From Natrinema amylolyticum (lineage in GTDB: Archaea > Halobacteriota > Halobacteria > Halobacteriales > Natrialbaceae): 64,000 bases of DNA. This document shows, one piece after another, positions 276 to 41,942 of the stretch. The notes beneath the pieces were generated by a model that ran no database searches, was not told where the DNA came from, and saw only the letters and a list, made by a program, of their open reading frames with translations. Position numbers and translations under genes: made by a program. Location of the stretch: NCBI RefSeq assembly GCF_020515625.1, contig NZ_JAIWPJ010000003.1, forward strand, positions 558,001 through 622,000, written 5' to 3'. The number at the start of each line of letters is the position of its first letter. Positions within the stretch are counted from its first letter, which is position 1.

Positions 276-360
276 GGGCGGCGAACGGTCGGCTTGCCTC
301 GCGAAGCCGGTCGTTACGGGCTGCGTATTTTTCACCCCAGACGTATTGGGGAAGACACAC

Positions 361-1440
361 ATGTCGACCCCCCGAATAGCGTTCGTGCTCGGCACTCGAC
401 CGGAGATCATCAAGCTCTCGCCGCTCGTTCGGGCGTGTCTCGAGCGGGCGATCCCGCACGTCGTCGTCCACACCGGACAGCACTACTCCGAGTCGCTCGA
501 TACGGTCTTCTTCGAGCAACTCGAGTTGCCGACGCCGGCCCACGACCTCGCGGTCGGTTCCGGCGACCACGGCGAGCAGACGGCCGCGATGATCCGCGGG
601 CTCGAGGGCGTTCTCGAGACGGAGCGACCCGACCACGTCGTCGTCCAGGGCGACACGAACTCCGCGCTCGCCGGGGCGATCACGGCGAGCAAACGCGAGG
701 CCTCGCTGGCGCACGTCGAGGCCGGACTGCGGAGCTTCGACCGCGAGATGCCCGAGGAGATCAACCGCGTACTGGTCGATCACGTCGCCGATCACTGCTT
801 CGCGCCGACCGACGAGTCGGCGCGGCTGCTCGCGGCGGAGGGGATCGACGGCAATCGCGTCCGCGTCACCGGTAACACGATCGTCGACGCCGTCTTGCAG
901 CACCGCGAGCTGGCGACGGAGAAGAGCGACGTGCTCGCGGAATACGACCTCGAGCCCGGGTCGTTCTCTCTCCTGACGGCCCACCGAGCGGAGAACGTCG
1001 ACGACCCCGAGCGCTTCGCGGGGATCCTCGAGGGCGTCGGCGCGTTCGCGACGCGGACCGACCGCGAGGTCGTCTATCCGATCCATCCGCGGGCGCGAGA
1101 GACGCTCGCGGCGTTCGAGCTGTCGGTCCCGGAGCCGATTCGGCTCGTCGACCCGCTCGACTTCCTCGACTTCCTGACCCTCGAGGACCACGCGAGCCTC
1201 GCGATCACTGATTCGGGCGGGGTCCAGGAGGAAGCGTGCATCCTCGGGACGCCGTGCGTCACGGTTCGAGACAGCACCGAACGACCGGAGACGGTCGATA
1301 TCGGTGCGAACCGACTCGTCGGGACCGACCCGGCGGCCGTCGTCGAGGGGGCCGAGGCGATGGTCGATCGGCCCAGTACGTGGTCGAATCCGTTCGGCGA
1401 CGGCGACGCCGCCGACCGGATTTTGGACGCCTTACTGTAG
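361..1440 (+). CDS. wecB: UDP-N-acetylglucosamine 2-epimerase, non-hydrolysing (WecB family)
   Basis: The enzyme interconverts UDP-GlcNAc and UDP-ManNAc in the cytoplasm, supplying ManNAc or its uronic acid for surface glycans. The 359-residue length is normal. Family landmarks are GTRPEIIKLSPL near residues 11-22, HTGQHYS near 42, the HVEAGLRSF segment with REMPEEINR, LTAHRAENV in the second Rossmann domain, and DSGGVQEE plus RDSTERPE near the C terminus, which bind the UDP-sugar. I chose the ATG at 361; an in-frame TTG at 346 would add five residues with no family support. The UDP-ManNAc dehydrogenase-like gene two positions downstream is the expected next step. The assignment is by motif, not alignment. 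Confidence 0.93.
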   Translation: MSTPRIAFVLGTRPEIIKLSPLVRACLERAIPHVVVHTGQHYSESLDTVFFEQLELPTPAHDLAVGSGDHGEQTAAMIRGLEGVLETERPDHVVVQGDTNSALAGAITASKREASLAHVEAGLRSFDREMPEEINRVLVDHVADHCFAPTDESARLLAAEGIDGNRVRVTGNTIVDAVLQHRELATEKSDVLAEYDLEPGSFSLLTAHRAENVDDPERFAGILEGVGAFATRTDREVVYPIHPRARETLAAFELSVPEPIRLVDPLDFLDFLTLEDHASLAITDSGGVQEEACILGTPCVTVRDSTERPETVDIGANRLVGTDPAAVVEGAEAMVDRPSTWSNPFGDGDAADRILDALL

Positions 1441-1506: not shown

Positions 1507-2424
1507 ATGGCATCAGTGCTGGTAACCGGTGGACTGGGAGCGATCGGTGCGCCCCTGACCGAAGAGCTCGAACGACGCGGCCACGACGTCTGGGTCGCCG
1601 ACCGCCCGTGGAACGAACGCGAGCGGTACTACCGCTGTGACGTCAGCGAGTACCGACAGCTCGAGCGGGTCTTCGCGGACCGCGAGTTCGACTACGTCTA
1701 CCACCTCGGCGCGGAGTTCGGCCGCCGGAACGGCGAGGACTTCTACGAGACGATGTGGCAGTCCAACGCCGTCGGCACGAAGAACGTGTGCCGACTGCAG
1801 GCCGAGCACGACTTCCGACTGATCTTCTCCTCGAGCAGCGAGGTGTACGGCGATTACGACGACGTGATGGAGGAGTCCGTACCCCTCGAGGAGGGGCCGC
1901 GGCAGCTGAACGACTACGCGATCTCGAAGTGGGTCAACGAACAGCAGATCATGAACGCGGCCGACCGGCACGGCACCGAGTCCGTGCGGGTCCGCTTTTT
2001 CAACACGTACGGGCCGGGCGAGCGCTACAGCGAGTACCGGAGCGTCGTCTGTAAGTTCTGCTACCGCGCGTTACACGACCTGCCGTACCACGTCTACGAG
2101 GACCATCACCGCTCGTTCACGTACATCGACGACACCGTTCGCACGCTCGCGAACGTCGTCGACTCCTTCCATCCCGGGGAGGTGTACAACATCGCCGGCG
2201 AGGAGTACTACGACATCGAGGAGCTCTCGAACATGGTGCTCGGCTACCTGGGCAAGGACGACGAACAGGTCGAGTACCGAGGGACCGAGGAACACAACAC
2301 GCTCAACAAGAAGGCCAGCGTCGAGAAGGCCGTGCGCGACCTCGGCCACGAACAGCGCGTCTCCCTCGAGGAGGGGATCCCGCGAACGATCGACTGGATG
2401 CGCGAGCACTATGACATCGAGTGA
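1507..2424 (+). CDS. NAD-dependent epimerase/dehydratase (extended SDR)
   Basis: This is a 305-residue sugar-nucleotide SDR. The N-terminal Rossmann motif is GGLGAIG (residues 8-14). SSSSEVYG supplies the catalytic Ser, and YAISK gives the YxxxK pair. RFFNTYGPGE and the SFTYIDD segment are typical of UDP-glucose epimerases and GDP-mannose or dTDP-glucose dehydratases. It probably changes a nucleotide sugar at C4 or dehydrates it; the substrate cannot be told from the sequence. The 3' end overlaps the next gene by 14 bases, so the two are probably co-translated. ATG 1507 is preferred because of the TATA-like element about 30 bases upstream. Confidence 0.88.
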   Translation: MASVLVTGGLGAIGAPLTEELERRGHDVWVADRPWNERERYYRCDVSEYRQLERVFADREFDYVYHLGAEFGRRNGEDFYETMWQSNAVGTKNVCRLQAEHDFRLIFSSSSEVYGDYDDVMEESVPLEEGPRQLNDYAISKWVNEQQIMNAADRHGTESVRVRFFNTYGPGERYSEYRSVVCKFCYRALHDLPYHVYEDHHRSFTYIDDTVRTLANVVDSFHPGEVYNIAGEEYYDIEELSNMVLGYLGKDDEQVEYRGTEEHNTLNKKASVEKAVRDLGHEQRVSLEEGIPRTIDWMREHYDIE

Positions 2425-3757
2425 TCCGCGACGCGACGGCGCAGTGGAACCGGCACGGTCCGGTGACGACGAGTTCGACTCGGGCGGGACCCGCGACGGC
2501 CCCGCTCCCAGCGACCCCGAGGGACCGGCTCTCGAGCCGATCGAGGAGGTGGTCGTCGTCGGCACCGGCTTCGTCGGCCTGCCGCTGGCGCTGTTGCTCG
2601 CCGACCGCGGCAAGCGAGTCGTTGGCGTCGACATCGACAGCAACCTCGTCCGGGCGATCAACGACGGGACCCTGAACGTCGACGAGGCCGAACTGCAGGC
2701 GCTGTTGGAGTCCGACGCCGTCGAGCGAAACCTCGAGGCGCGGACAGAGCCGACCGACGGCGACGCGTTCGTCGTCTCGGTTCCGACGCCGCTGACCGAG
2801 CCGAACAAGAGTCCGGACCTCTCCGCGCTCGAGGCCGCCCTCGAATCGATCCGGCCGTACCTCGAGCCGGGCGACCTCGTGAACGTGGAGTCGACGGTGC
2901 CGCCGCTGACCTGCGCGGAGACGGTCGTCCCCGCCCTCGAGGCGGCCGGGCTCGACCCGGGCGCGGAGATCCAGCTCGCCCACTCGCCCGAGCGGATCCT
3001 CCCCGGCGACGTGTTCGAGGAACTCGTCACCAACGACCGCATCATCGGCGGGATCGACGAGCGGAGCCGCCGCCGCGCCGCCATGCTCTACGAGCCCTTC
3101 CTCGAGGGGAGCGTCTACTACACCGACCTGCTGTCGGCCGAGCTCTGCAAGCTCGTCGAGAACACCTACCGGGACGTCAACGTCGCGCTGGCGAACGAGA
3201 TCGCGCTGATCGGCGAGGAGCTCGACGTCGACGCGAGCGAGGTGATCGACCTCGCGAACTATCACCCGCGCGTCGACGTCCTGCAGCCGGGGATCGGTGT
3301 CGGCGGTCACTGCCTGCCGATCGACCCGTGGTTCCTGAACGAGGTCGATCCGGAGCACACGAACCTGATCACGACCGCGCGCCGGATCAACGACAAGATG
3401 CCAGCCGTCGCCGCGCGGAAGGTCCGCCGGGCGCTGGCCCCGCTCGCGGACCCGACGGTCGTCGCGTTCGGGGCCGCGTACAAACCGAACGTCGACGACC
3501 GCCGGAACAGCCCCGCGGAGCGGATCGTCGCCGACCTGCGCGCCGACGGCTACCGCGTCCGCCACTACGACCGCCACGTCGACGAGTTATCCTACGACGA
3601 GCTGTGGTCGGTCCTCGAGCGCGAGTCGCCGGACGTCGTCGTCCAGTTAGTTCCCCACGAGGAGACGGTGGCGGCCCTCGCGGAGCACCGAGTGCGGCTC
3701 GACGACGCGGGCATCGAACTGCTCCAGTTCGGCGTCGAGAACCCGATCGAACCGTGA
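2411..3757 (+). CDS. UDP-N-acetyl-D-mannosamine/nucleotide-sugar dehydrogenase (WecC/UDP-GlcDH family)
   Basis: It oxidises a UDP-hexosamine at C6 to the uronic acid with two NAD+. Given the WecB-type epimerase upstream, UDP-ManNAc to UDP-ManNAcA is the likely reaction. The 448 residues have an acidic N-terminal extension of about 40. Then come the NAD-binding motif GTGFVGLPLALLLA, the central helix ELCKLVENTYRDVN, and GVGGHCLPIDPWF, which carries the catalytic cysteine. AYKPNVDDRRNSPA marks the C-terminal UDP-binding domain. It overlaps the SDR gene by 14 bases, and its TGA overlaps the GTG of the following glycosyltransferase. A UDP-glucose or UDP-GlcNAc dehydrogenase is the alternative, but GGHCLPIDPWF is closer to the WecC group. 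Confidence 0.9.
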   Translation: MTSSDPRRDGAVEPARSGDDEFDSGGTRDGPAPSDPEGPALEPIEEVVVVGTGFVGLPLALLLADRGKRVVGVDIDSNLVRAINDGTLNVDEAELQALLESDAVERNLEARTEPTDGDAFVVSVPTPLTEPNKSPDLSALEAALESIRPYLEPGDLVNVESTVPPLTCAETVVPALEAAGLDPGAEIQLAHSPERILPGDVFEELVTNDRIIGGIDERSRRRAAMLYEPFLEGSVYYTDLLSAELCKLVENTYRDVNVALANEIALIGEELDVDASEVIDLANYHPRVDVLQPGIGVGGHCLPIDPWFLNEVDPEHTNLITTARRINDKMPAVAARKVRRALAPLADPTVVAFGAAYKPNVDDRRNSPAERIVADLRADGYRVRHYDRHVDELSYDELWSVLERESPDVVVQLVPHEETVAALAEHRVRLDDAGIELLQFGVENPIEP

Positions 3758-5094
3758 CCGGGGACGCCACGCCGACGCGGTCACCGTCGTCGGACCGGCG
3801 TTCAACCGGCGAGCGGACGGAACGGGGCGACGACCCGTCCGTCCTGGTCGTCTCGCAACTGTTTCCGCCGGAGTCGATGGCCGGCGCACACCGGTGGGAG
3901 AAACTCCTCCGGAACGCGCCCGATCGCCTCGATTCGCGCGTCGTCTGCCCGCAGCCGTCCGTTCCCGTCGGAGAGTTCGAGCGGCGATACAGTCCGTGGT
4001 CGAGCGAGCGAGTCGGCGGCGTTCCCGTCACGCGACTGTTCACCTACCAGCCCGTCGAGGAACGGACTGACCTCGAGCGGATCCTGAACCACGGGGTCTT
4101 CGCGATTCTCGCGACGATCTACGTGCTCGTTCACGGCCGCAAGTACGACTGCGTCGTCGTCCAGATCGGTCCGCACACGACGCTCCTACCCGGACTCGCG
4201 GCGCTGGCGACCGGACGCGGCCTCGTCGTCGACGTCTACGATCGCTGGCTCGACAACGCGGTCGACTTCGGGTTCACCGACGAACGGTCGTTCGCCTACC
4301 GGCTGCTGCGGTGGGCGGAACGGGTCGCCCTCGAGCGCTGCGACCGGCTCGTCACGCTCACGCCGACGATGGCGGCCCACTACCGCGAGACGTACGACCT
4401 CGACGACGGGAAGATCGAGACGGTCCCGTTCGGCGTCGACGACGACCTCTTCGATCCCTCGGTCGCGAGCGAGGACCGGCCCCGAATCGTCTACACGGGC
4501 AAGCTCGGCGAGGGGCAGGCGTTCGAGCCGTTCCTGCGCGGCTTCCGACGTGCCGATATCGACCACGACCTCGTCATCTACGGCTTCGGCGAGCGCCGGG
4601 CCGAACTCGAGGCGCTGGCTTCCGACCTCGGCATCGACGAGAGCGTTCGGATCAACGGGCCGGTCCCCCGCGAGGAGATCCCGGGGTTGGTGGCGTCGTC
4701 GGCGATCAGCCTGGTGCCCCTCGAGACGGATCGCACCCTCGAGTACGCGCGGCCGACGAAGTTCCTCGAGACGATGGCGCTGGGCACGCCCTACGTCGCC
4801 AGCGCCGTCGCGGAGATCGAGGCCGTCACCGCGGACGCCGGGGCCGGACTCGCCGTCGAGAACGAGCCGGACGCCGTCGCGACGGCGCTCCGGGAACTCG
4901 CCACTGACCCAGAGCGGCGGCGAGCGATGGGGCGGCGCGGAATCGAGTTCGTCGACCGGGAACACCGCTGGAACGAACTGGGCGACAGGGTCGGCGACCT
5001 CCTCTCGGGAGTCGCTCGAGAGCGGAGGGCCGCCGGCTCCGGGCTCCGCGCCCGGCTCGGTCGGCTCGCGGCGGCCGCCGGCCTCCGTCGGTAG
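3754..5094 (+). CDS. Glycosyltransferase family 4
   Basis: A 446-residue GT-B transferase that should move a sugar from a nucleotide donor to a lipid-linked or growing glycan on the cytoplasmic face. An N-terminal tail of about 30 polar residues precedes VLVVSQLFPPESMAGAHRW, the usual GT4 opening. VPFGVDDDLF begins the donor domain, followed by RIVYTGKLGEG, VIYGFGERRAELE, and the ARPTKFLETMALGTPYVAS acceptor/donor loop with the conserved E. The only start consistent with the upstream stop is the GTG at 3754, which shares bases with the TGA of the dehydrogenase (GTGA), indicating translational coupling. It closes the plus-strand arm of the locus. Confidence 0.88.
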   Translation: MTGDATPTRSPSSDRRSTGERTERGDDPSVLVVSQLFPPESMAGAHRWEKLLRNAPDRLDSRVVCPQPSVPVGEFERRYSPWSSERVGGVPVTRLFTYQPVEERTDLERILNHGVFAILATIYVLVHGRKYDCVVVQIGPHTTLLPGLAALATGRGLVVDVYDRWLDNAVDFGFTDERSFAYRLLRWAERVALERCDRLVTLTPTMAAHYRETYDLDDGKIETVPFGVDDDLFDPSVASEDRPRIVYTGKLGEGQAFEPFLRGFRRADIDHDLVIYGFGERRAELEALASDLGIDESVRINGPVPREEIPGLVASSAISLVPLETDRTLEYARPTKFLETMALGTPYVASAVAEIEAVTADAGAGLAVENEPDAVATALRELATDPERRRAMGRRGIEFVDREHRWNELGDRVGDLLSGVARERRAAGSGLRARLGRLAAAAGLRR

Positions 5095-5320: not shown

Positions 5321-6028
5321 CTACTCGCCGCTGCGGGCGGCGACGACGGCGAGCGTGCTCTTGCCGACCCGGTCCGGCAGGACGCGCTCGCACAGCCAGC
5401 CGCCGATCTGGAGCGGATCGGCGAGCGTGAGCCGACAGTCGCCGACGTACGCGATCTCGATCGGTTCGAACCCGTACCGCTCGAGGAGCTGGGTCAGGGT
5501 CGTGGCGTCGAACCAGCACGTGTGGCCGGTGTTGACGAACTCCTGGTCCAGGAGGCGGAGCGCGGTCCAGTGGACCGCCATCGCGTTCGGCGTCGTGACG
5601 ACGAGTTTGCCGCCGTCGGCCAGGTGCTCGTCGACCGACGCCAGTAGCCCGTCGAAGTCGACGAGGTGTTCGATCAGTTCGCCCACGACGATCACGTCGA
5701 ACGTCTCCTCGAGCGCGAGATCCTGTGCGTCGCCGGTGGTGACGTCGTATCCCGCCTCAGCGAGCGCGGCGAGTTCGTCCTCGAGGACGTCGATGCCGAG
5801 CGCGTCGTCGGCCGCCCGGACGACGAGTTCGTGGAGCCACGCCTCGTCGTGTCGCTTGGCGGAGTCGTGCGCGACGCACCCGACATCGAGGACGGTCTCG
5901 TCTCTGACGTGGGGCTCGATACAGCGTTCGAACGTCGTTTCGACGTTTCGTTTCCGCGTTTCGTTCGCTCTCATTGGAATCAGGTCCGTGCGTTCCGCAG
6001 TCGCGTCGCCGTCGGTCGCCGGCCGCAT
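5321..6028 (-). CDS. Class I SAM-dependent methyltransferase
   Basis: It probably methylates a sugar or other part of the glycan. The 235 residues carry the SAM-binding motif I VLDVGC, the acidic residue after strand 2 (GIDVLED), GDAQDL, and FDVIVVGELIEHL, the usual motif of UbiE/Coq5-like or sugar methyltransferases. KLVVTTPNAMA follows as post motif II. The longest start (6028) lies 16 bases after the upstream glycosyltransferase stop. An internal ATG at 5974 begins MRANETRKRNVE and would give 217 residues; the first 18 residues look non-conserved, so this alternative is quite possible. It is the last gene of the minus-strand arm. Confidence 0.82.
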   Translation of the reverse strand: MRPATDGDATAERTDLIPMRANETRKRNVETTFERCIEPHVRDETVLDVGCVAHDSAKRHDEAWLHELVVRAADDALGIDVLEDELAALAEAGYDVTTGDAQDLALEETFDVIVVGELIEHLVDFDGLLASVDEHLADGGKLVVTTPNAMAVHWTALRLLDQEFVNTGHTCWFDATTLTQLLERYGFEPIEIAYVGDCRLTLADPLQIGGWLCERVLPDRVGKSTLAVVAARSGE

Positions 6029-6044: not shown

Positions 6045-7079
6045 TCATCGCAGCCACGCGACCACGATGATCCGCGTCAGACCGACCGCGAATCCCAGTT
6101 TCGGCTTCTTGCTGTCGCCGTCCTTTCGATCCTCGATCCTGATCGGGATCTCCTCGAGTCGGAGGCCGTTCTTCCGGGCCTCGATGATCAACTCGGGGGC
6201 GTTGAAGCGCTCCTCGGTGAGCGTGAGCCGCTCGAGCATCGATCCCCGGATCGCCCGGTAGCCGTTCGTACAGTCGGTGATGTCGGTGTTCATCAGGACG
6301 TTGATCAGGCCGGTGAAGAACCGGATGCCGGTCCGTCGAACGACGCCGTTGCCGGAGCGATCGACGCCGAGGTACCGCGAACCCATCACGTAATCGGCCT
6401 CGTTCTCGACGATCGGTGCGACGAGCCGGTCCAGTTCCGACGAGGGGTGCTGGCCGTCGCCGTCCGCCGTGACGACGATCACCGCGTCGTTCTCGAGTGC
6501 GATCTCGAACCCGGTCTTCAGGGCACCGCCCTGGCCCTGATTGATCGGGTGCTCGACGACCATCGCGCCGCTCGAGGCGGCCCGCGCGGCGGTCTCGTCG
6601 GCGGACCCGTCCGATACGACCAGCGGCTGGACGTCGTATCCGCGGACCGACTCCGGCAGCGACGAGACGACGGCGCCGACGGTATCGCTCTCGTTGTACG
6701 CGGGAATCACGACGAACACCGTCTCCGCGCCGCCGTCCGTCCGCGGGGCCTGCTCGACGGAGAGCGATCGGGTCAGCGCCGCGACCTCGTCGCGGGCCGC
6801 CCTGGCGACGCTCAGCGCGTACAGGACGACGCCGAGCAGGACGAGCGTCGCGAGCAGCGACACGACGACGTAGCGCCGTTCGATCTCGAGCGCGGTCCCG
6901 ACGAGGTCGAACGCCTCCGGGACGAACACGAGCGATGCCACGCCGCTCGCGAGCGCGAGCGCGATGGCGAGGTCGCGTCGATCGAACCGTCGCCGGTAGC
7001 GGTCGAATCCCCAGTAGAGGATGGCGACCGTGAGCGCGAGCAACGCGACGTCGAGCGGGTCTGGCGGAATCGGACTCAT
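6045..7079 (-). CDS. Glycosyltransferase family 2, dolichyl-phosphate hexose synthase type, with N-terminal membrane helices
   Basis: It probably charges a polyprenol/dolichol phosphate carrier with a hexose at the membrane. In the 344 residues, about three hydrophobic helices lie in the first 90. The GT2 domain follows: VIPAYNESDTVGAVVSSLP, VVSDGSADET, GQGGALKTGFEIA, then TADGDGQH as the metal-binding DxD-like site. TDCTNGYRAIRGSML is a hallmark of the DPM1/GtrB group. Having helices before, rather than after, the GT domain is less usual for GtrB proteins. The start at 7079 overlaps the stop of the upstream epimerase by four bases (ATGA). Open frame continues far upstream but is a shadow of that epimerase. 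Confidence 0.88.
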   Translation of the reverse strand: MSPIPPDPLDVALLALTVAILYWGFDRYRRRFDRRDLAIALALASGVASLVFVPEAFDLVGTALEIERRYVVVSLLATLVLLGVVLYALSVARAARDEVAALTRSLSVEQAPRTDGGAETVFVVIPAYNESDTVGAVVSSLPESVRGYDVQPLVVSDGSADETAARAASSGAMVVEHPINQGQGGALKTGFEIALENDAVIVVTADGDGQHPSSELDRLVAPIVENEADYVMGSRYLGVDRSGNGVVRRTGIRFFTGLINVLMNTDITDCTNGYRAIRGSMLERLTLTEERFNAPELIIEARKNGLRLEEIPIRIEDRKDGDSKKPKLGFAVGLTRIIVVAWLR

Positions 7080-8092
7080 GCGTTCCGTTCGACGAGTCGT
7101 CGGATCGTGTCTTCGACCGTGTGCGTCGGGTCCCAGCCGAGGCGGTCGTGCGTCCGCGTCGTCTCGACCGGGAAGGCGTCGACGAGCGTCTCGTCGCCGC
7201 GGGGGTTTTCGACGAGTTCGGTCGGGACGTCGATGCCCAACACGTCGTCGACGCAGTCGCTGACGACCTCGGCGAGGGCCATCACACTGGGGTCCTCGTC
7301 GCTGGCGATCGTGAACGCTTCGGTGCCCGTCGCTCCCTCGTCCAGCCGGTCGACGAGCACGTCGGCGCTGCGGAGATAGGCCCGAGCGACGTCCTTGACG
7401 TGGACGAAGTTCCGCGATTGGGTCCCGGGTTCGTAGACGGGCAGCGGTTCGGCCGCGAGCGCCCGTTCGACGAAGAAGTTGAGCACCGCTCCCTTCGTGA
7501 TGACCTGGCCGTCGATCGTGTGATCGCCGTACAGGTTCGACTTGAGGAACAGGTGCGCCGGGAACGAGTCCTCGGCGAGGGCGTCGACGAGCCGCTCGCC
7601 AGCGAGCTTGGTCCGTCCATACCAGTTCAGGGGTTCTCGCGGCTGATCGGCCGTGATCGGGAACTCCTGGGGATCGCCGACGACCGCCATGCTCGCGGGG
7701 AAGATCAGGGCCGCGCCGCGTCGCCGGCAGAACCGCGCGACGTGGCTCGTCCCGGTCACGTTGCTCTCGTAGGCGAGCTCCGGGTTCGCCTCGCAGTCCT
7801 CGACGCCGCTGATCGCGGCGAGGTGCATCACGACGTCGGCCCCCTCGAGGGCGTCCCACAGGCGGTCGCGGTTGCGAACGTCGACGTGCTCGACGGTGAC
7901 GTCGCCGATCCGTCGCAGCGAGCCGCGATAGAAGTCGTCGATCGCCGTGATCGACCACGCCGGACGTTCGGACTGGAGGAGCGAGACGACGCGACTCCCG
8001 ATATAGCCAGCCGCCCCGGTGACCGCGACGCGTACCTGCCGGGACTCGTCGCCCGTCGATGCGACGCCGGAGCCGCCCTCATCGGTGGCCAT
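7076..8092 (-). CDS. NAD-dependent epimerase/dehydratase (extended SDR)
   Basis: A 338-residue nucleotide-sugar SDR. A polar lead of about 20 residues precedes VAVTGAAGYIGS, the NAD-binding glycine motif. VMHLAAISG, FPASMAVVG and WYGRTKLAGE (YxxxK catalytic pair) follow. The SDR fold ends with a C-terminal substrate domain containing NFVHVKDVARAY. The substrate is unknown; UDP-glucose 4-epimerase-like activity is the simplest guess. It overlaps the upstream SDR gene by 14 bases and the downstream GT2 by four, so the minus-strand arm is one tightly packed operon. The ATG at 8092 could be late or early by a few codons because the N terminus is poorly conserved. Confidence 0.87.
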   Translation of the reverse strand: MATDEGGSGVASTGDESRQVRVAVTGAAGYIGSRVVSLLQSERPAWSITAIDDFYRGSLRRIGDVTVEHVDVRNRDRLWDALEGADVVMHLAAISGVEDCEANPELAYESNVTGTSHVARFCRRRGAALIFPASMAVVGDPQEFPITADQPREPLNWYGRTKLAGERLVDALAEDSFPAHLFLKSNLYGDHTIDGQVITKGAVLNFFVERALAAEPLPVYEPGTQSRNFVHVKDVARAYLRSADVLVDRLDEGATGTEAFTIASDEDPSVMALAEVVSDCVDDVLGIDVPTELVENPRGDETLVDAFPVETTRTHDRLGWDPTHTVEDTIRRLVERNA

Positions 8093-9086
8093 CGACGTTC
8101 ACCTCCTGCGACGGCGAGTTCGGTCGCGACGCGTCCAGTGTACCGGCGGTGTCCCGCGACTGCGCGAACCGATCGGCGAGCTCTCGAACCCCCGATCGCA
8201 GCGTCCACGACGGTTCGAACCCCGTCTCCGAGAGGCGGTCGAACTCGACGTGGTAGGACGGGCCCGGCCGTTCGTCCTCGAGATAGGCGATCTCGAGGTC
8301 TCGGCCGAGTTCCTCGCTGACGACGCGAGCGACGTCCTCGATGCGGTAGTTCTGGTCGGTGCTCCCGACGTTGTACACGTCTCGCGGCCACTGCTCGGGC
8401 GAGACCGCCGCGTGTTCGTACGCTCGAGCGGCGTCCCGGACGTGAATGAACGGCCGCCAGTTCTCGCCGTCGCCGTACACCGTCAGCGGCCGGCCGGTCA
8501 GTCCCCGGAAGACGAAGTGATTGACGACGAGGTTGAACCGAATCCCCGGCGCGTAGCCGTAATTCGTGCTCATTCGGAGCGACGTTGCCGAGAAGTCGCT
8601 GGCGTCCGCCGCGTCACGGACCGCCCGCTCGGCCTCGACTTTCGCCTCGCCGTACGGATTGCAGGGTGCCGTCGTCGTCGTCTCGTCGATGTTCGTGTCC
8701 GCGGCGTAGCCGTAACTGTTGCACGAGGAGGCGTACACGACCGATTCGACGCCGGCCTCGCTCGCCGCGGTCACGACGTTTTCGGTGCCGCCGACGATGA
8801 CGGCGCGCGTCTCCTCGCGGCGGTCGTGCGTGCTCTCGGCGCCGGTGATCGACGCGAGGTGGATCACGCGGTCGACGCCGCCCATCGCGCTCTCGACGGC
8901 CTCGTAGTCTCTGACGTCACCTCGCCGAAACTCGAGGTCGTCACCGATCGCTCCCAACAGCGCCCGCGGTGAGCCGGCCGCGAGCGAGTCGAGGACCACG
9001 ACCTCCGAGACCGCCTCGTTCTCGCGGAGGCGAGGAACGAGCGCGCTCCCGATGTAGCCACAGCCGCCGGTGACCAGTATCCGCAC
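8079..9086 (-). CDS. NAD-dependent epimerase/dehydratase (extended SDR), second paralogue
   Basis: The 335 residues start directly with ILVTGGCGYIGSALVPRLR, so the ATG at 9086 fits the fold. VIHLASITGA, YASSCNSYGYAA and NPYGEAKVEAE (YxxxK pair) mark the active site. FIHVRDAARAYEHA and NVGSTDQNYRIEDVA belong to the C-terminal substrate domain. It resembles UDP-glucose 4-epimerase/GDP-mannose epimerase-like proteins, but the exact sugar is not readable. It lies three bases downstream of the sulfoquinovose-synthase-like gene. Three different SDRs in a row on this strand suggest that at least two modified sugars are made here. Confidence 0.87.
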   Translation of the reverse strand: MRILVTGGCGYIGSALVPRLRENEAVSEVVVLDSLAAGSPRALLGAIGDDLEFRRGDVRDYEAVESAMGGVDRVIHLASITGAESTHDRREETRAVIVGGTENVVTAASEAGVESVVYASSCNSYGYAADTNIDETTTTAPCNPYGEAKVEAERAVRDAADASDFSATSLRMSTNYGYAPGIRFNLVVNHFVFRGLTGRPLTVYGDGENWRPFIHVRDAARAYEHAAVSPEQWPRDVYNVGSTDQNYRIEDVARVVSEELGRDLEIAYLEDERPGPSYHVEFDRLSETGFEPSWTLRSGVRELADRFAQSRDTAGTLDASRPNSPSQEVNVDGHR

Positions 9087-9089
9087 GGG

Positions 9090-10262
9090 TCAGCCCTCAC
9101 TCAGAACGTCGGGGAGGAATCGGTCCTCGTGCGCGACGATGACGTCCTCGTACCTGAGAAGCGTCTCGAGGATCGAGCGAACGCTCGCTTCGAACGACGT
9201 CGTGCGACCGTCGATCAACGCTTCGTAGCGATCGTTTTCGATCTCCATCGCATGGGTCTCGTCCTCCGACCGCGGGTTCTCGAAGTGTTCGACCTCGACG
9301 CCGAGCCCGAACTCGTTCGCCACGTCGGCGACGGTCTCGGCGATCTCGACGATGCTGATCGCCCGCGTCACCTGATTGTAGACGGTGTGGTCGTCGGGGC
9401 GCTCGTCCGGATCTCCGAGCGCGAGTCGCGCCAGTCCCTCGACGGCGTCCTCGAGCGCGATGAAGGGCTTGCGCTGTTCGCCGCGTCCGTAGACGGTCAT
9501 CGGATAGCCGGCGACGGCCTGCGCGCAGAAGCGGTGTGCGACGACGCCGAAGTAGTAGTCGAAATCGAACCGCGTCCCGAGCCTGGGGTCGGCCGCCGTC
9601 TCGGCGGTCTCGATGCCGTGAGTGATCGCCGTCCGGACGTCCGATACCGGAACGTCGAACTGGTCGTGTGCCAGCCGCATGTTCGCCGCGTCGTGGGACT
9701 TCGTCAGGTGATACCAGCTCCCGGCCATCGCCGGAAACGGGACGTCGTCGCGCTCGCCGCCGTGTTCCATCGTCGCCTCGCCTTCGGGGATGGGGAACTC
9801 GGGCGCGCCGTACACCCCGGTCGTCGTGGTCTCGATGAAGTGCGTGTCCTCGAGGCCGTGTTCCCGCAGCGACCACAGGAGGTTCCGCGTCGCCTGGAGG
9901 TTGTTGTGCTGAGTGAAATTCGCCCGGTCGCGGCTGATCTGGGAGTACGGTGCCGACGGTTGGGCCGCCGTGTGGACGATCGTCTCGGGTTCGTGGATCC
10001 GGATCAGCCGGTCGACGAACTCGCCGTCGGTGAGGTCGCCCTCGACGAACGAGAGGTTCCGAACGCCGTGGACCTCGCCGACCGTCTCGAGCCGATCCGT
10101 CATCGAGGCGACGGGCGTCGCACTCGTCGATCCGACCGTCTCGACCCAGTCTCGTCGCCCGAAGTTGTCGACGAGGACGATTTGATCGTCGGTTCGGGAT
10201 GCGATGCGAACCGCTGTGGGCCAGCCGATATATCCGTCTCCACCGGTGAGCAGCATTGACAT
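9090..10262 (-). CDS. UDP-sulfoquinovose synthase-like SDR (SQD1/SqdB/Agl3 family)
   Basis: Known family members convert UDP-glucose and sulfite to UDP-sulfoquinovose, the donor for sulfolipids or, in Sulfolobus, N-glycans. The 390-residue protein has the special SQD1 landmarks, not those of general epimerases: GGDGYIGWPTA at the start, VDNFGRRDW, TPVASMTDR, SAPYSQISRDRANFTQHNN, WYHLTKSHD (catalytic YxxxK with the family histidine), FDYYFGVVAHRFCAQAV, MTVYGRGEQRKPFIALEDAV, and ENPRSEDETHAME near the end. I recognised these by memory of plant SQD1. ATG 10262 is used; ATG 10256 is possible. It heads the minus-strand operon. Another nucleotide-sugar activity within the same family remains possible. 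Confidence 0.85.
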   Translation of the reverse strand: MSMLLTGGDGYIGWPTAVRIASRTDDQIVLVDNFGRRDWVETVGSTSATPVASMTDRLETVGEVHGVRNLSFVEGDLTDGEFVDRLIRIHEPETIVHTAAQPSAPYSQISRDRANFTQHNNLQATRNLLWSLREHGLEDTHFIETTTTGVYGAPEFPIPEGEATMEHGGERDDVPFPAMAGSWYHLTKSHDAANMRLAHDQFDVPVSDVRTAITHGIETAETAADPRLGTRFDFDYYFGVVAHRFCAQAVAGYPMTVYGRGEQRKPFIALEDAVEGLARLALGDPDERPDDHTVYNQVTRAISIVEIAETVADVANEFGLGVEVEHFENPRSEDETHAMEIENDRYEALIDGRTTSFEASVRSILETLLRYEDVIVAHEDRFLPDVLSEG

Positions 10263-10438
10263 GATGCTACCAGATAGTGATCCGAACGATAGCAAAAAAT
10301 GTATCCATTGGAAAGATCCAATGATAATGCTAGCGCCATTATTTACTGAACATCTTAGCTATCTTCGTTCACTTGGCGAAATAGTATAAGGATCTAGTGA
10401 ATCAAATTTATTGCCGGTGACGTCGCAAAACGGTTCGT
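10263..10438. promoter_or_regulatory. AT-rich divergent promoter region
   Basis: This 176-base stretch separates the divergent minus-strand glycan operon from the plus-strand CxxC gene and is far more AT-rich than either. It holds a 7-base-arm inverted repeat (CATTGGA, four bases, TCCAATG) at 10306-10323. An AAATTTATTG run near 10405-10414 sits about 25-30 bases before the ATG at 10439, as expected for a TATA box. The inverted repeat could be an operator or a hairpin. Confidence 0.5.
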
Positions 10439-10588
10439 ATGGCTGAGACAGGCGATTCCGACGAGCCGTCAGAGACGTGTGACCGATGCGGCGAACTGCT
10501 CGATGACGAACTGATGGACGACATCGAGGACGGCGTGGGCTGCGTCGAAATTTGGAGACACCTCAGCGAGAACCGTGACGAGGAGTGA
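10439..10588 (+). CDS. Small CxxC zinc-ribbon-like haloarchaeal protein, 49 residues
   Basis: A short open frame begins at ATG 10439 and ends TGA 10586-10588. The protein is very acidic and has TCDRCGELLDDEL, a CxxC knuckle, and a single later Cys in DGVGCVEIWRH. Haloarchaea encode many such microproteins with two or three cysteines that are thought to bind zinc. With only three Cys and one His, a complete four-ligand site would need the His at residue 41 or dimerisation. A TATA-like run lies at the leaderless distance upstream, and codon use matches the genome, so I think it is a real gene. Function is unknown. Confidence 0.65.
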   Translation: MAETGDSDEPSETCDRCGELLDDELMDDIEDGVGCVEIWRHLSENRDEE

Positions 10589-10681
10589 GTCGTCCGGGTC
10601 GACCGTTCCCTAGCGCGGTGTCGCAGCGATCGGTGATGACCAGTAGTTTCAACACCGCTCCGATAGGACGTGATACACGGT

Positions 10682-12235
10682 ATGCGACTGACGCGTGACC
10701 TCTGGGGCCGTCTCTCCCTGGCGGGGTTTCTGGCCGCGTTCGCGGTCGTCATCGGTCGGCCGCTCCCCCTGGCGGGAACGGTGCTGATCGGCGCATCGAT
10801 CCTCGCGTCGCAGTACTCGTTTCTCGCCGCGCTCGACCGGACGAGACGCCGACTCTCGGTGACGCGATCGCTCCCGTCCGCGCCCGTTCGAGCCGACGAG
10901 TCGACGCCGATCCCGATCAGTGCGACGCTCGCGGACCCGGCGCCGTTCGCCCTCGAGATAGCTGTCGGGCTGCCGACCGCGGCGACGTCGGACCGCGACG
11001 CGGCGGTCCTGACGCTCGAGCCGGACGCGACGACCGCGACGGAGACCGTCTCCGTCACGTGGCCGGTCGTCGGGAGCCACCGGTTCGACGCGGCTCGAGT
11101 GACCGCGACCGACGGCCGGTTCGTCGAGACGTTCGCGACGGGCGAGCGACCGACGGTCTCGGTCGAGTCGCGAGGCCCTCGGCGGATTCACGTCGGGGAG
11201 GGCGGCGACCGGCTCGCGAGCCTGTACGGTGCCCACACGCTGCGTCGGTCGGGTCGCGGGCTCGAGCCGGCCGAAATACGGGAACACGTTCCCGGGGACG
11301 CGGCCAAACGGATCGATTGGAAGGCGACCGCGCGGCTCGCGACGCCCCACGTCCGCGAGTACGAGACCGAGACGACGCGTCGGACCCTCCTCGTGGTCGA
11401 TCACCGTCGGTCCCTCTCGACCGGCCCGCCGGCGGTGACGAAACTCGACTACCTCCGAGAAGTGATGCTCGCGACGGCCGAGAGCGCCCGCGAACTCGAC
11501 GACCCGCTCGGACTCGTCGCCGTCGACGACCGCGGCGTGACGACTCGTCTCGAGCCGACCGCGACGACCGAGACGTACGCGACGGTCCGCCGCGAACTCC
11601 TCGACGTCGAGCCGACGCCGTCTGAACCGACCGCCCGACGCGCTGCTGAGTCGACTGCCCGGCACGCCGCCGAGCCGGCCGCTCGAGCGCCGACGCGAGC
11701 GAGCGACGGCGGGTGCGCCGCGCGAGGACGGTCGGCTGGGGCGACCGCCGACCCCGATCCGTCGATTCACGAGCGGCCGACGCGGGCGACGGCTCGCCGC
11801 TCGGTCCGGGATCTCGAGGGCGACGGCGATCCCTTCGCGGAGACGCTCCGTCCGTTCTACGCCGATTCCGGGCGGTACTACCGGCTCGCACGGGAACGCC
11901 CGCTCTTCGACGCCGTGGAGACGGCGCTGACGTCGAACGCGTCTGCGACGTGGACGGTCCTCTTCACCGACGACACCGACCCGTCCGAGCTTCGCGAGAC
12001 GGTGTCGATGGCCCGCGCGAACGGCGCCGCCGTCACGGTCTTCCTCGCACCGACGGTGCTCTACGAACCCGGCGGTATCGACGACGTCGAACGGGCGTAC
12101 GACCGCTACCTCGAGTTCGAGGCGTTGCGCCGCGACCTCGCGCGACTCGACCGCGTTCGCGCGTTCGAAGTCGGGCCCAGCGATCGACTCGCGGCCGTCC
12201 TCGAGGCCGGGCGCGAACGGGGTGGGCGACGATGA
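10682..12235 (+). CDS. DUF58 domain protein (MoxR-associated)
   Basis: A 517-residue membrane-anchored protein of the DUF58 group, which works with MoxR AAA+ ATPases in poorly understood maturation or envelope systems. Two hydrophobic segments lie within about residues 10-50. The beta-rich middle leads to the DUF58 signature SGRGLEPAEIREHVPGD with RIDWKATAR, then a von Willebrand A-like region starting TRRTLLVVDHRRS. A low-complexity alanine/arginine-rich insertion spans about residues 315-375 and looks unconserved. The ATG at 10682 is chosen over GTG 10670. It overlaps the next gene by four bases (ATGA) and starts a three-gene operon facing the moxR operon. Confidence 0.85.
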   Translation: MRLTRDLWGRLSLAGFLAAFAVVIGRPLPLAGTVLIGASILASQYSFLAALDRTRRRLSVTRSLPSAPVRADESTPIPISATLADPAPFALEIAVGLPTAATSDRDAAVLTLEPDATTATETVSVTWPVVGSHRFDAARVTATDGRFVETFATGERPTVSVESRGPRRIHVGEGGDRLASLYGAHTLRRSGRGLEPAEIREHVPGDAAKRIDWKATARLATPHVREYETETTRRTLLVVDHRRSLSTGPPAVTKLDYLREVMLATAESARELDDPLGLVAVDDRGVTTRLEPTATTETYATVRRELLDVEPTPSEPTARRAAESTARHAAEPAARAPTRASDGGCAARGRSAGATADPDPSIHERPTRATARRSVRDLEGDGDPFAETLRPFYADSGRYYRLARERPLFDAVETALTSNASATWTVLFTDDTDPSELRETVSMARANGAAVTVFLAPTVLYEPGGIDDVERAYDRYLEFEALRRDLARLDRVRAFEVGPSDRLAAVLEAGRERGGRR

Positions 12236-12822
12236 GCGGCCGGTCGACGGATCTCGACGTGCCGACGGTCCTGGTGCTCGCGGCGCTCGTCGCGGTGTTC
12301 TCCTACGCCGCCGGCTGGCCGGGTGTGGTCGCCGGCGTCGCGACCGTCGCCGTCTGGTACGTGCTCGAGACGCCGTCCGCGGTGGCGATCGGCCACGTCG
12401 CGCTCGTCGGGCTCTTTCCGGCCGGGATCGACCCGGTCCCGTTCGCGATCGTCGAGGCCGGGTTCGTCGCGCTCGTGCTCGCGTCGGCCCCGCGAACGGC
12501 GAGGCGCGCTCGGATCGGCCACACCGTGGCCGTGCTCGCGAGCGTCGGGGGGCTCGCGGGGATCGCCTGGGCCGTGCTGGGTCCGGCGGGGCGACCGCTG
12601 TGGGCGGCCGCCGTCGCGTCGCTCGCCGCCCTGGCCGGGGGCGTGTACGGCCTCCACCGATACGGACTCGTCTTCGTTCTCGACCGCAGGGAACGCGACC
12701 GCACCGAGCCGCGGCGACGACAGCGCGAGTCGATCGCCGAACCGGCGACCGCGGCGACGGAGCGCGTCGGTTCGTCGCCGCCGGACGCGGACTCGACAGC
12801 CGACGCTGATAGCTACCGATGA
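12232..12822 (+). CDS. Multi-pass membrane protein of the DUF58 operon
   Basis: 196 residues with about five or six hydrophobic helices between residues 10 and 140 (for example VLVLAALVAVFSYAAGW and VAIGHVALVGLFPAG), followed by a charged Arg/Ala/Asp-rich cytoplasmic tail. I do not recognise a domain. It is wedged between DUF58 and the next gene with four-base overlaps at both ends, so it is almost certainly translated with them and is likely a membrane partner of the MoxR/DUF58 system. The ATG at 12232 is fixed by the overlap. Longer open frame upstream is only a shadow of DUF58. Confidence 0.78.
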   Translation: MSGRSTDLDVPTVLVLAALVAVFSYAAGWPGVVAGVATVAVWYVLETPSAVAIGHVALVGLFPAGIDPVPFAIVEAGFVALVLASAPRTARRARIGHTVAVLASVGGLAGIAWAVLGPAGRPLWAAAVASLAALAGGVYGLHRYGLVFVLDRRERDRTEPRRRQRESIAEPATAATERVGSSPPDADSTADADSYR

Positions 12823-13697
12823 CTCAGAGCACTGACGACCCAGATCGGACCGACTCACGACCGCCGCAGCGCGACGATGCCGCTGCGGAATCGACTCCGG
12901 ACCGGGCCGAGGCGGCCGCCAGGGCGGAACTGCTGGCCGAAGAGAACGCCCGCCTCCGGGCGGAGTACGCACGCTCGATGCGGGGGATGTACCGCCGAAC
13001 CGCGCGATGGCTCGCCGTCGTCGGCGCAGTCGCCGTCCTCGGCGGCGGCCTGTTTCCCGACGGCCGAAACGTCCTGTTCGCCCTCGGCGCGACCGGCCTG
13101 TTCGGCGCGATCCTCACCTACTACCTCACTCCCGGCCGGTTCGTCGCCGCCGACGTCGGCGACTGCGTCTACGCCGCCGCCGCGACGAACGCGCAGGCCC
13201 TGGCCGACGAACTCGCCCTCCGGGATGACCGCCTCTATCTCCCCGGAACCGGCGCGTCGTCGGTCCGGCTGTTCGTCCCACAGCGGGCCGAGTACGAGCT
13301 CCCCGACGACCGATTGAGCCCCGTCAGTACCGGATCGGCGGACCGAGGTCTCGTCCTCGAGCCGACCGGTAGTAGACTCCTCGCGGAGTTCGAGCGGACG
13401 CTCGACGAGTCGCTTTCGGCCGAGCCGACGGCCGCGGCGACGCGGCTCGCCGACGGCCTCGTCGAACAGTTCGAGCTCGCGACCAGTGCCGACCCGGCAG
13501 TCGATGCCGACGACGGGCGCGCGACCATCGCCGTCGAATCGTCCGCCTTCGGCGACGTCGACCGGTTCGATCACCCCGTCGCCTCGTTTCTCGCGGCCGG
13601 GTTGGCCGACGCCCTCGATCGGCCGGTCGAACTCGAGGTCGATTCCGGCGCGGAGCGAACCGAGTGGCTGATCACGTGTCGCTGGGAGCCGGCGTAA
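12819..13697 (+). CDS. Haloarchaeal membrane-anchored protein of the DUF58 operon
   Basis: 292 residues. An N-terminal polar stretch of about 30 residues leads into a short Ala/Glu-rich helix likely to be a coiled coil (AELLAEENARLRAEYARSM). Two membrane segments follow near residues 65-105 (WLAVVGAVAVLGGGLF and VLFALGATGLFGAILTYYL). The remaining 190 residues are a soluble acidic domain with repeated beta-strand-like stretches (RLFVPQRAEYELPDD, WLITCRWEPA). I know similar genes beside MoxR/DUF58 in haloarchaea but no function. It overlaps the preceding gene by four bases and ends 47 bases from the convergent moxR stop. Confidence 0.78.
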   Translation: MTQSTDDPDRTDSRPPQRDDAAAESTPDRAEAAARAELLAEENARLRAEYARSMRGMYRRTARWLAVVGAVAVLGGGLFPDGRNVLFALGATGLFGAILTYYLTPGRFVAADVGDCVYAAAATNAQALADELALRDDRLYLPGTGASSVRLFVPQRAEYELPDDRLSPVSTGSADRGLVLEPTGSRLLAEFERTLDESLSAEPTAAATRLADGLVEQFELATSADPAVDADDGRATIAVESSAFGDVDRFDHPVASFLAAGLADALDRPVELEVDSGAERTEWLITCRWEPA

Positions 13698-13744
13698 CTC
13701 GCCTCGCGTCCGACTGCCCGGACCGGTGTTCTCTCGGTCCGACG

Positions 13745-14788
13745 TCACTCCGTCGAGGCCGCGTCGCCGCCGTCGCTCACTGCCTCCTGCTCGAGCCCCG
13801 CCTCGGTCCCCGGGACGTCGACGGACTCGAGGACGTCCGCGACGACTTCGTCCGCGGCGACGTCGCTCAGCCCAGCGTCGGTCGTCAACACGAGCCGATG
13901 CGCTAAAATCGGCTCGGCCAGCGCCTTCGCGTCGTCCGGAATGACGTACTCGCGACCGCGAATCGCGGCCCGTACCTTGACGCCGTCGAGATACGCGAGC
14001 GTCGCCCGCGGCGACGCTCCGTGAGCGACGTCGGGGTGGGCTCGCGTCGCTCCGACGAGATCGACGAGGTACTCCTTGACTGGGCGGGCGACGTGAACGT
14101 CGTCGGCGCGCTCCCGCGCCGCGAGTATCTCCTCGCGGTCGACGACCTGCTCGACCGCAGTTGGGCCGAGCATCGGCTCGTCGTCGAAGCGGTCGACGAG
14201 CTCCAGTTCGGCGTCTTCGTCGGGGAGCTCGATCCGGTGTTTGAACTGGAAGCGATCGCGCTGGGCCTCCGGCAGCTCGAAGACGCCCTCCATCTCGATC
14301 GGGTTCTGCGTCGCAATGACCACGAACGGCCGCGGCAGCTCGAGGGTCTCCCCGCCGATGGTGACGTGGCGCTCTTGCATGGCCTCGAGCAGGGCGCTCT
14401 GGGTCTTCGGCGTCGCGCGGTTGATCTCGTCGGCGACGACCACGTTCGCGAAGACCGGGCCCCGCTGAAGCTCGAACGTGCCCGTGCTCTCCCGGTAAAT
14501 CTCCGTCCCCGTGATGTCCGCCGGGAGGATGTCCGGCGTCATCTGGACGCGGTTGTACTCGAGGCCGCTCGCGCGGGCGAAGAGGGTCGCGAGCGTCGTC
14601 TTCGCCACGCCGGGGACCCCCTCGAGCAGGAGGTGGCCGCGAGTTAGCAGCGTGATCGTGAGCAGTTCGACCGCGTCGTCGTTGCCGACGAGGACGCGGC
14701 CGATCTCCGCGCGTAACGCGTCGTAGATCGCTTCCGGATCGCCCGTGTCTGTACGACTGCCGTCGGTTCTCGGATCGTTCTCGCTCAT
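13745..14788 (-). CDS. MoxR family AAA+ ATPase
   Basis: The MoxR group comprises cytoplasmic ATPases that remodel or activate partner proteins, typically those with VWA or DUF58 domains. The 347 residues show Walker A GVPGVAKTT, the pre-sensor KTQSALLEAMQERHV, Walker B VVVADEINRA, sensor 1 VIATQNPIE, the arginine finger region LPEAQRDRFQFK, and the C-terminal lid with HPDVAHGASPRATLAYL. This is a normal length and an intact active site. It is the third gene of a minus-strand operon, 84 bases after the DUF4350 gene. It converges on the DUF58 operon, so the likely partners are encoded tail to tail. Confidence 0.93.
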   Translation of the reverse strand: MSENDPRTDGSRTDTGDPEAIYDALRAEIGRVLVGNDDAVELLTITLLTRGHLLLEGVPGVAKTTLATLFARASGLEYNRVQMTPDILPADITGTEIYRESTGTFELQRGPVFANVVVADEINRATPKTQSALLEAMQERHVTIGGETLELPRPFVVIATQNPIEMEGVFELPEAQRDRFQFKHRIELPDEDAELELVDRFDDEPMLGPTAVEQVVDREEILAARERADDVHVARPVKEYLVDLVGATRAHPDVAHGASPRATLAYLDGVKVRAAIRGREYVIPDDAKALAEPILAHRLVLTTDAGLSDVAADEVVADVLESVDVPGTEAGLEQEAVSDGGDAASTE

Positions 14789-14872
14789 TCGTAGTCTCGT
14801 GTCTGGTCCGTCGGGTCGCTTCGGACGGGTTCGTTCGTCGCGCCTCCGGTCCGCCGCATGGACCGGGCCCGT

Positions 14873-16042: not shown

Positions 16043-16332
16043 GGGAGCACCTCCGGCGGAAGCACTTCTGGCGGGAGTACCTCGAGAAGCCGGTGGGCGA
16101 CGAGCGCGGCGAACCCGACGAGGCCGAGCAGCGTGAGCCATTTCAGCCGAGATCGCCACGTCGGCGTCACGTTAACCGGCGCGGTGAGTTCCGTGACGAC
16201 GAGCAGGCCGATCAACGAACACACGAAGAACAGTTCGGCGGAGAGCGAGCCGAACAGCGCCAGGAGGAGTACCGTCGCTACCATCCACGCGAGCTGTCCG
16301 CGGACGAACCGCATCCGGCGCGGAGTCGCCAT
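16039..16332 (-). CDS. Small membrane protein heading the DUF4350-moxR operon
   Basis: 97 residues with three hydrophobic helices (LAWMVATVLLLALFGSLSAEL, FFVCSLIGLLVVTEL and LLGLVGFAALVAHRL, roughly). The C terminus is a short repeat, EVLPPEVLPPEVLP, encoded by three diverged 15-base units at about 16042-16086. The stop is coupled to the following GTG. No domain is recognised. Its place at the head of a MoxR operon suggests a membrane component of that system. The synonymous differences between repeat units suggest the repeat is old, not a recent slippage event. Confidence 0.75.
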   Translation of the reverse strand: MATPRRMRFVRGQLAWMVATVLLLALFGSLSAELFFVCSLIGLLVVTELTAPVNVTPTWRSRLKWLTLLGLVGFAALVAHRLLEVLPPEVLPPEVLP

Positions 16333-18631: not shown

Positions 18632-18773
18632 GTCGCCGCCTCGCCGCCACGAGTCCGTTGTGCGGTCGGTTTCGGTTCGTGACGCCGTCGTGCCCGACCG
18701 GGTTCGTCTCATCGGGGACTTCCTGCCGAGTACCGAGGGATCGGCTGGGAATTCCGGCCACTATGCGATTTCT

Positions 18774-19280: not shown

Positions 19281-19284
19281 CGAG

Positions 19285-20538: not shown

Positions 20539-20561
20539 ACCCGTCCCGTACCGATGGGGAT

Positions 20562-20570
20562 CATATATAG
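20562..20570 (-). promoter_or_regulatory. TATA element of orc1/cdc6
   Basis: CATATATAG (CTATATATG on the minus strand) lies 24-32 bases before the ATG at 20538. A half box, GTCGGGTGTAGAGTGC, lies at 20595-20610, just upstream of the promoter on the minus strand, and a fuller one at 20660-20682. The initiator could therefore bind close to its own promoter and control its own expression. Confidence 0.6.
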
Positions 20571-20589
20571 GCTAGTGATTGGGAGCGAC

Positions 20590-41919: not shown

Positions 41920-41942
41920 CCGGATCGCACATCGTTTTCGCT

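Follow-up and report, generated by a model that had tools for sequence, protein, structure and literature searches.

A haloarchaeal SQD1-like protein of Natrinema amylolyticum belongs to an archaeal sister subfamily of the UDP-sulfoquinovose synthases and may make a sulfonated amino sugar

The SQD1-like protein encoded in the 64,000-nucleotide stretch of Natrinema amylolyticum DNA analysed here (the window) belongs to the SQD1 superfamily, in an archaeal (Halobacteriota) subfamily that is sister to the known UDP-sulfoquinovose synthases, and is most likely an NAD-dependent SDR acting on nucleotide sugars. We tentatively propose that it makes C6-sulfonated nucleotide sugars for surface glycans, with an amino sugar (UDP-GlcNAc) a likelier substrate than UDP-glucose. 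To our knowledge, the C-S bond formation of sulfoquinovose is known from one enzyme family, studied in a plant, some bacteria and Sulfolobus, and we describe here a widespread archaeal sister family that carries the annotation of that enzyme even though it lacks residues shown to be essential. Should the product prove to be a sulfonated amino sugar, a missing gene of a known N-glycan could be assigned and the archaeal homologues would need renaming; sulfonated surface sugars would also be common in salt-loving archaea.

The gene lies in frame 1 of the minus strand at 10262..9090, with its ATG at 10262 and its stop codon ending at 9090, and is the first gene of an operon; translation, profile, tree and model matches together identify the product (P0001, 390 aa) as an SQD1-like extended SDR. 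The A+T-rich region upstream of it (10263..10400, minus strand) contains a TATACTATTT box, read by eye, and is a probable promoter. The original prediction singled out three motifs, GGDGYIGW, SAPYSQISRDRANFTQHNN and WYHLTKSHD, and all three are found exactly in the translation, at residues 7-14, 103-121 and 183-191 respectively. The motif set as a whole nevertheless differs from that of SQD1 and Agl3, since A-Q-P stands directly before SAPYS where SQD1 and Agl3 have E-Q-R.

Membership of the superfamily is indicated by several comparisons. In a phmmer search of all solved chains the best match is SQD1 (E 7e-73, 249 bits), with the best non-SQD1 chain at 37 bits, and Foldseek with the predicted model likewise places SQD1 first (E 2.8e-29, versus 1.4e-15 for the next match). 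The AlphaFold model used is of medium confidence (pLDDT 70.8) and was built from an input alignment of SQD1-type proteins; we have dropped it as evidence on the pocket, as pLDDT is below 50 in two active-site loops (150-155 and 180-187). The score with the NCBIfam model for UDP-sulfoquinovose synthase (NF041015) is 338 bits against an equivalog cut-off of 575, a cut-off that is evidently narrow because it is passed by one of 14 control genomes, inferred to be S. acidocaldarius, and because the SQD1-type archaeal gene of genome G548, at 508 bits, also falls below it; with a single control genome passing, we set the shortfall aside as proof of non-membership. An alternative that we consider unlikely is that the protein adds no sulfite and has instead become an SDR of another kind, such as an epimerase or a dehydratase, on an SQD1 scaffold, contributing to a non-sulfonated deoxy or amino sugar. 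Its likeness to GalE (TIGR01179, 47 bits, cut-off 262) and to NDP-hexose 4,6-dehydratase (TIGR01181, 50 bits, cut-off 365) is at the level of the superfamily only, and the acid/base pair that follows the catalytic Thr in 4,6-dehydratases is absent, Thr-Gly replacing Asp-Glu/Lys.

The original prediction expected the protein to fall inside the SQD1/Agl3 clade, and the trees depart from this in part, placing it in a separate archaeal clade that is sister to the sampled SQD1 and SqdB sequences. In a tree of 59 rows, including three outgroup rows with long branches, the window protein groups with its haloarchaeal homologues, apart from the SQD1-type proteins, in an archaeal clade of 35 rows (support 95/99). 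The adjoining group of 21 rows (92/87) contains Arabidopsis SQD1, S. meliloti SqdB, proteins from cyanobacteria, acidobacteria, Chloroflexota and others, and the archaeal loci L114, L115 and L117. When the outgroup and the latter two loci are omitted (35 rows), the split between the archaeal and SQD1-type clades has support of 100/100. The Agl3 sequence is absent from both trees, and it is regarded as SQD1-type from its motifs AEQRSAP and GTMGEYG, which are read from printed primers (excerpt of PMC4388408). L115 and L117 (genomes G399 and G620), from archaea of the same phylum, represent a third sequence variant within the superfamily, on a long branch; they show AEISSAPYS or AEIPAAPYS together with GTMG.

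The archaeal clade shares with SQD1, SqdB and Agl3 (UDP-sulfoquinovose synthase, EC 3.13.1.1) the SDR fold, the GxxGxxG motif, Thr...YxxxK, His96, Gln100, Ser180, His183, SAPYS and TQHNN, but differs from them by E99A, R101P, G144T and M146T and by further near-fixed differences. T147, Y184 and K188 of the window protein align with T145, Y182 and K186 of SQD1, the catalytic YxxxK being Tyr184-His-Leu-Thr-Lys188 (9699..9713, minus strand). All 76 archaeal-clade sequences retain the catalytic Thr and Tyr as well as the His that precedes the motif, and 75 retain the Lys, which is Arg in one non-haloarchaeal row; the flanking His, Gln and Ser are also conserved. Against this constancy, Arg101 of SQD1 is replaced by Pro in all 76 sequences; in the window protein this is Pro102, within Ala100-Gln101-Pro102 (9957..9965, minus strand), which aligns with SQD1 Glu99-Gln100-Arg101. 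Met146 (Met145 of Agl3) is replaced by Thr in 75 of the 76, here Thr148 within Thr147-Thr148-Gly149 (9816..9824, minus strand; SQD1 Thr145-Met146-Gly147); Ala takes the place of Glu99 in 75, and Thr that of Gly144 in all 76. Of the 65 haloarchaeal sequences in these counts, one is from a plasmid record and the others represent 64 of the 157 matching genomes; they are partly best matches and partly chosen across families rather than at random. The counts exclude L115, L117 and two intein-bearing haloarchaeal proteins, the last two of which also show AQPSAPYS and TTTTG. Among SQD1-type sequences Arg101 is present in 85 of 85 and Met146 in 84, although 80 of these rows come from a pattern scan with EQR in one of its two patterns, so that Arg101 was there partly selected; the five unselected rows (SQD1, S. 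meliloti, Rhodococcus, Pseudonocardia and L114) also have Arg101. The 80 scan loci are mostly from cyanobacteria and acidobacteria, with a few from Chloroflexota and others, and none of those kept is from Sulfolobus, the source of Agl3.

The consequences of such replacements can be gauged from Agl3, in which activity is abolished in the alanine mutants H95A, R101A, M145A, Y182A and K186A, falls to 12% in E147A and to 15% in Y148A, and is full in T144A (excerpt of PMC4388408). The loss of Arg101 and Met146 thus argues against an ordinary UDP-sulfoquinovose synthase that acts on UDP-glucose and sulfite, tolerates the swaps and provides sulfoquinovose for an N-glycan or lipid, as do the position of the protein in the sister clade rather than inside the SQD1-type one and the amino sugar carried by the Haloarcula hispanica glycan described below. 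We regard such an enzyme as possible but doubtful. In its favour, the closest homologues are UDP-sulfoquinovose synthases, the haloarchaeal cluster IV has been so named in print (excerpts of PMC4388408 and PMC1544339), and the gene for AglF, a supplier of UDP-glucose, is often a neighbour (within 12 kb in nine of 39 genomes). The pocket also appears to tolerate change, because the S. meliloti and Rhodococcus homologues have Val, and that of Pseudonocardia has Lys, at the position of Glu148 (Glu147 of Agl3).

This same position, after the catalytic Thr region, is occupied in all 76 archaeal-clade sequences by Val, Ile or Leu, which would suit an enzyme without a sulfite step. GalE-type enzymes are likewise without an acid after the catalytic Thr. 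We do not treat the change to Val as diagnostic of a lost dehydratase acid, since Val occurs there in S. meliloti and Rhodococcus as well. A reaction without sulfite would further agree with the loss of residues that Agl3 needs for turnover (excerpt of PMC4388408) and with the departure from the published fingerprint of UDP-sulfoquinovose synthases, [ST]MGxnYx3K (excerpt of PMC8987622), the window protein having TTG and 75 of the 76 clade members having Thr at the Met position. Since the swaps are fixed clade-wide while the catalytic residues stay, we infer that they reflect a different occupant of the pocket, and a shift of substrate across the whole clade would explain them. Arg101 and Met146 may, however, be needed for sulfite addition itself, which counts against our proposal of a sulfonating enzyme.

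That sulfite is nonetheless probably added, giving a sulfonated product, is suggested by the kept catalytic frame and by H. hispanica, a species that carries a C6-sulfonated sugar and whose single SQD-family gene is a member of the same subfamily; the latter point also argues against the reading without sulfite. The S-layer N-glycan of this species is 6-sulfo-QuiN-(1,6)-[Glc-(1,2)]-Gal, and DolP-QuiNS is present in its membrane (excerpt of PMC9943897). By our calculation the m/z of 673.27 published there fits Hex2 and that of 898 fits Hex2 + 225.03, a free amine, whereas sulfoquinovose would give 899.29. The residue masses calculated for the C6-sulfonated sugar are 267.04 when derived from GlcNAc, 225.03 from GlcN and 226.01 from Glc. 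Genome G084 of our sample is H. hispanica ATCC 33960, from 4001 bases that are 100% identical to plasmid NC_015944 at the same coordinates, strain N601 being an equally good match. It contains a single SQD-family gene (467.6-468.8 kb of the main chromosome; 355 bits with NF041015, the next at 38), whose product is 75% identical to the window protein. The gene is followed by two SDR genes and an STT3/AglB-like gene, so that it stands two genes from an oligosaccharyltransferase paralogue, and AglF, AglM, GlmS and a flippase predicted from our own reading lie within about 11 kb of it. The STT3/AglB-like gene (locus L059, 5319-7652, minus strand) is a second, divergent one, with 127 bits against TIGR04154, below the cut-off; the canonical AglB is elsewhere in the genome.

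Interpolation from a single fixed point, AglB (HAH_1202), places this cluster at approximately HAH_0486 to HAH_0495, with the SQD-like gene near HAH_0495, in agreement with the glycosyltransferase cluster HAH_0486-HAH_0496 named for H. hispanica (excerpt of PMC9943897). The available part of that paper names no gene for the sulfonation of 6-sulfo-QuiN, and we found no published assignment in the part of the literature covered, which cites the primary papers on this glycan from 2015 and 2020. An amino sugar is the more likely substrate in view of the H. hispanica glycan, the active-site replacements and the neighbouring GlmS and GlmU genes. A point against this is that the H. hispanica sugar, having a free amino group, would need de-N-acetylation, and no deacetylase was recognised among the cluster genes inspected. 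We also considered a link between the operon and the (methyl)sulfoquinovose reported for Haloferax volcanii in the literature available in part, and rejected it: the control genome of this species has no NF041015 match at E 1e-8 (weak matches below the cut-off appear at 1e-3), in agreement with a report that it lacks an Agl3 homologue (excerpt of PMC4245038). Because Haloferax volcanii is without the gene, reports of sulfo-sugars and the SQD-like family do not correspond one to one.

In the pathway that we propose, the SQD1-like enzyme would oxidise C4 of a UDP-hexose, the C6 hydroxyl would be lost to give a 5,6-ene, and sulfite would be added at C6 before C4 is reduced again. The likelier substrate, UDP-GlcNAc (or UDP-GlcN), would yield UDP-6-sulfo-quinovosamine, N-acetylated or free, which the two partner SDRs might finish or epimerise. 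In the strain studied here the membrane GT2 could load the sugar on dolichyl phosphate, and the methyltransferase could cap it, for the S-layer or another surface glycan. UDP-GlcNAc 5,6-dehydratases exist in the same superfamily and carry out 5,6-ene chemistry on UDP-GlcNAc; they differ in having a TCE or [ST]DK motif where the window protein has TTG, and in being without a sulfite step (excerpt of PMC8987622). More speculatively, the whole A-Q-P/T-T-G clade could be a separate UDP-6-sulfo-quinovosamine synthase, adding sulfite onto a UDP-GlcNAc-derived 5,6-ene and supplying the sulfonated amino sugar of archaeal N-glycans, known to us so far from H. hispanica, and the SQD-like/SDR/SDR module, often with GlmS and GlmU, could be its pathway, common to haloarchaea and other Halobacteriota.

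The distribution of the family is broad. Homologues are present in 157 of 391 sampled Halobacteria genomes (E 1e-30 or better) and in eight of 21 sampled Natrinema genomes, that of the window included, so the module is strain-variable. In a draw of 392 genomes from the phylum, 41 match at E 1e-20, 13 of them outside the order and class of the window; the 14 loci of these outlying genomes comprise 11 of the A-Q-P type (L116 with TTMG), one of the SQD1 type (L114) and two of the third variant. Around the haloarchaeal genes, in 39 hand-chosen neighbourhoods of about 20 kb each, a homologue of the second SDR, SDR2 (at least 48%), is present in 35 and of the third, SDR3, in 36, while the GT2 of the window recurs in four and its methyltransferase in three; the conserved unit is therefore the SQD-like gene with two SDRs, and the GT2 and methyltransferase are local additions. 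The same neighbourhoods contain a TrmB-type regulator (21), GlmS (16), a GlmU-like gene (17) and an STT3-like gene (6). Gene-by-gene reading of seven of the 11 non-haloarchaeal A-Q-P loci shows two SDRs directly after the SQD-like gene in six (L111 has one), and in all seven a TrmB-like gene that adjoins it or lies within 2 kb. No TrmB-like regulator was seen beside the window copy (10263-21000) or in the neighbourhoods of two Natrinema relatives. In L105 (G564) a PF03601 membrane protein is encoded directly before the SQD-like gene (2909-4246), an arrangement seen in this one non-haloarchaeal genome; NCBI labels proteins of this kind putative sulfate exporters.

Proximity to genes of amino-sugar and glycan metabolism was compared with expectations that assume random placement and ignore shared descent. 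On this footing 18 of 39 genomes have GlmS at 12 kb or less from the SQD-like gene where 0.47 would be expected (71 copies, above the cut-off only), nine have AglF within 12 kb where 0.31 would be expected (34 genomes have AglF; copies above the cut-off, 47 of the 79 matches listed), and ten have canonical AglB within 25 kb where 0.57 would be expected. Counting all 79 listed AglF-like matches raises the figure for AglF to 11 of 39. AglF supplies UDP-glucose. We have dropped the proximity of GlmS as proof of an amino-sugar substrate, AglF being enriched too, and gene context by itself leaves the substrate undecided because AglF is also near and in L105 follows the GlmU-like gene that comes after the module; L116 has GlmS and a GlmU-like gene. 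In the genome of the window none of GlmS, AglF and canonical AglB is on the contig of the SQD-like gene, which in the case of GlmS counts against our proposal.

The oligosaccharyltransferase neighbours and the GT2 also make a dolichol-linked surface glycan the more likely destination, rather than a lipid. A sulfo-sugar destined for a membrane sulfolipid and not for a protein glycan has been suggested for a similar operon of Haloquadratum walsbyi (excerpt of PMC1544339), but it appears improbable given the canonical AglB genes near ten of the 39 SQD-like genes, the STT3-like gene after the module in H. hispanica, and the resemblance of the window's GT2 to dolichyl- or polyprenyl-phosphate sugar synthases, its best matches although below their cut-offs.

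The operon of the window consists of five tightly packed minus-strand genes, with a 3-base gap, a 14-base overlap, a 4-base overlap and a 16-base gap at its joints (starts from the ORF list and translation). Its make-up, two SDRs, a GT2 and a methyltransferase behind the SQD1-like gene, is as originally predicted: all are on the same strand, and the classes are backed by Pfam (Epimerase, GT2 with DUF2304, and Methyltransf_23) and by NCBIfam. SDR2 (8079..9086, minus strand, GTG start) and SDR3 (7076..8092, minus strand), identified by Pfam and NCBIfam matches and by their recurrence in neighbourhoods, are of the GalE-like epimerase family and form genes 2 and 3 of the conserved module. They are followed on the same strand by two accessory genes, a membrane DUF2304 and GT2 glycosyltransferase (6045..7079), which is a candidate dolichyl-phosphate sugar synthase, and a class I methyltransferase (5321..6028, Methyltransf_23 by Pfam). 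The GT2 protein has its DUF2304 part at the N-terminus, and its top NCBIfam scores, below the cut-offs, are with polyprenyl-phospho-GalNAc synthase and AglJ.

A neighbouring divergent operon on the plus strand encodes a WecB-type UDP-GlcNAc 2-epimerase (346..1440), an SDR (1507..2424; Pfam and NCBIfam), a UDP-sugar dehydrogenase that is probably of the UDP-ManNAc type (2411..3757) and a GT4 glycosyltransferase (3754..5094; Pfam and NCBIfam). The ManNAcA-type branch predicted here is plausible, WecB being above its own cut-off (TIGR00236, 384 bits) but the dehydrogenase only above that of its family and not above those specific for UDP-ManNAc. The companion prediction, of a sulfoquinovose-type branch, keeps its sulfonated sugar as the likeliest product of an SQD1-superfamily enzyme heading a glycan operon; sulfoquinovose as the sugar's identity is put in doubt by the replacement of Arg101 and Met146 and by the 6-sulfo-quinovosamine of H. 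hispanica (known from an excerpt of the source).

The Natrinema genome is 4.71 Mb and the window lies on a contig of 667 kb. A similar gene order is found on plasmid pNVE414 of Natrinema versiforme, and Pfam identifies a Cdc6/Orc1 gene at 19288-20538 (minus strand), near the glycan set; for these two reasons the glycan genes are probably on a secondary replicon.

Annotation of the protein as a UDP-sulfoquinovose synthase is not new, because haloarchaeal homologues have already been so named: a 2006 paper noted an SqdB operon in a haloarchaeon (PMC1544339), and Zolghadr et al. set a haloarchaeal 'cluster IV' apart in 2015, including NJ7G_0131 of Natrinema sp. J7-2 and Haloquadratum SqdB (PMC4388408), both sources being available in part. 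Judged by organism names and description, cluster IV appears to correspond to the subfamily of the window protein. The H. walsbyi operon, SqdB with two GalE homologues, has the same three-gene make-up as the conserved module; the window adds the GT2 and methyltransferase, and the paper speaks of sulfolipid biosynthesis (excerpt of PMC1544339). What we add is the fixed residue signature, the reach of the sister clade outside the haloarchaea, the conservation of the three-gene module and a link to the 6-sulfo-quinovosamine of H. hispanica, which has one member of the subfamily within its glycan cluster (excerpt of PMC9943897).

Two further features were observed in passing. On the plus strand at 40207-48673 the window encodes, as read by eye, an ABC importer for peptides or oligosaccharides (a binding protein, two permeases and two ATPases) followed by a GH3-like glycosidase. 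In two relatives, L095 (G318, 8673-10886) and L096 (G239, 8379-10589), the SQD-like gene, on the minus strand in both, is interrupted inside the catalytic YxxxK motif by an in-frame, intein-like stretch of some 350 aa that contains a LAGLIDADG_3 domain.
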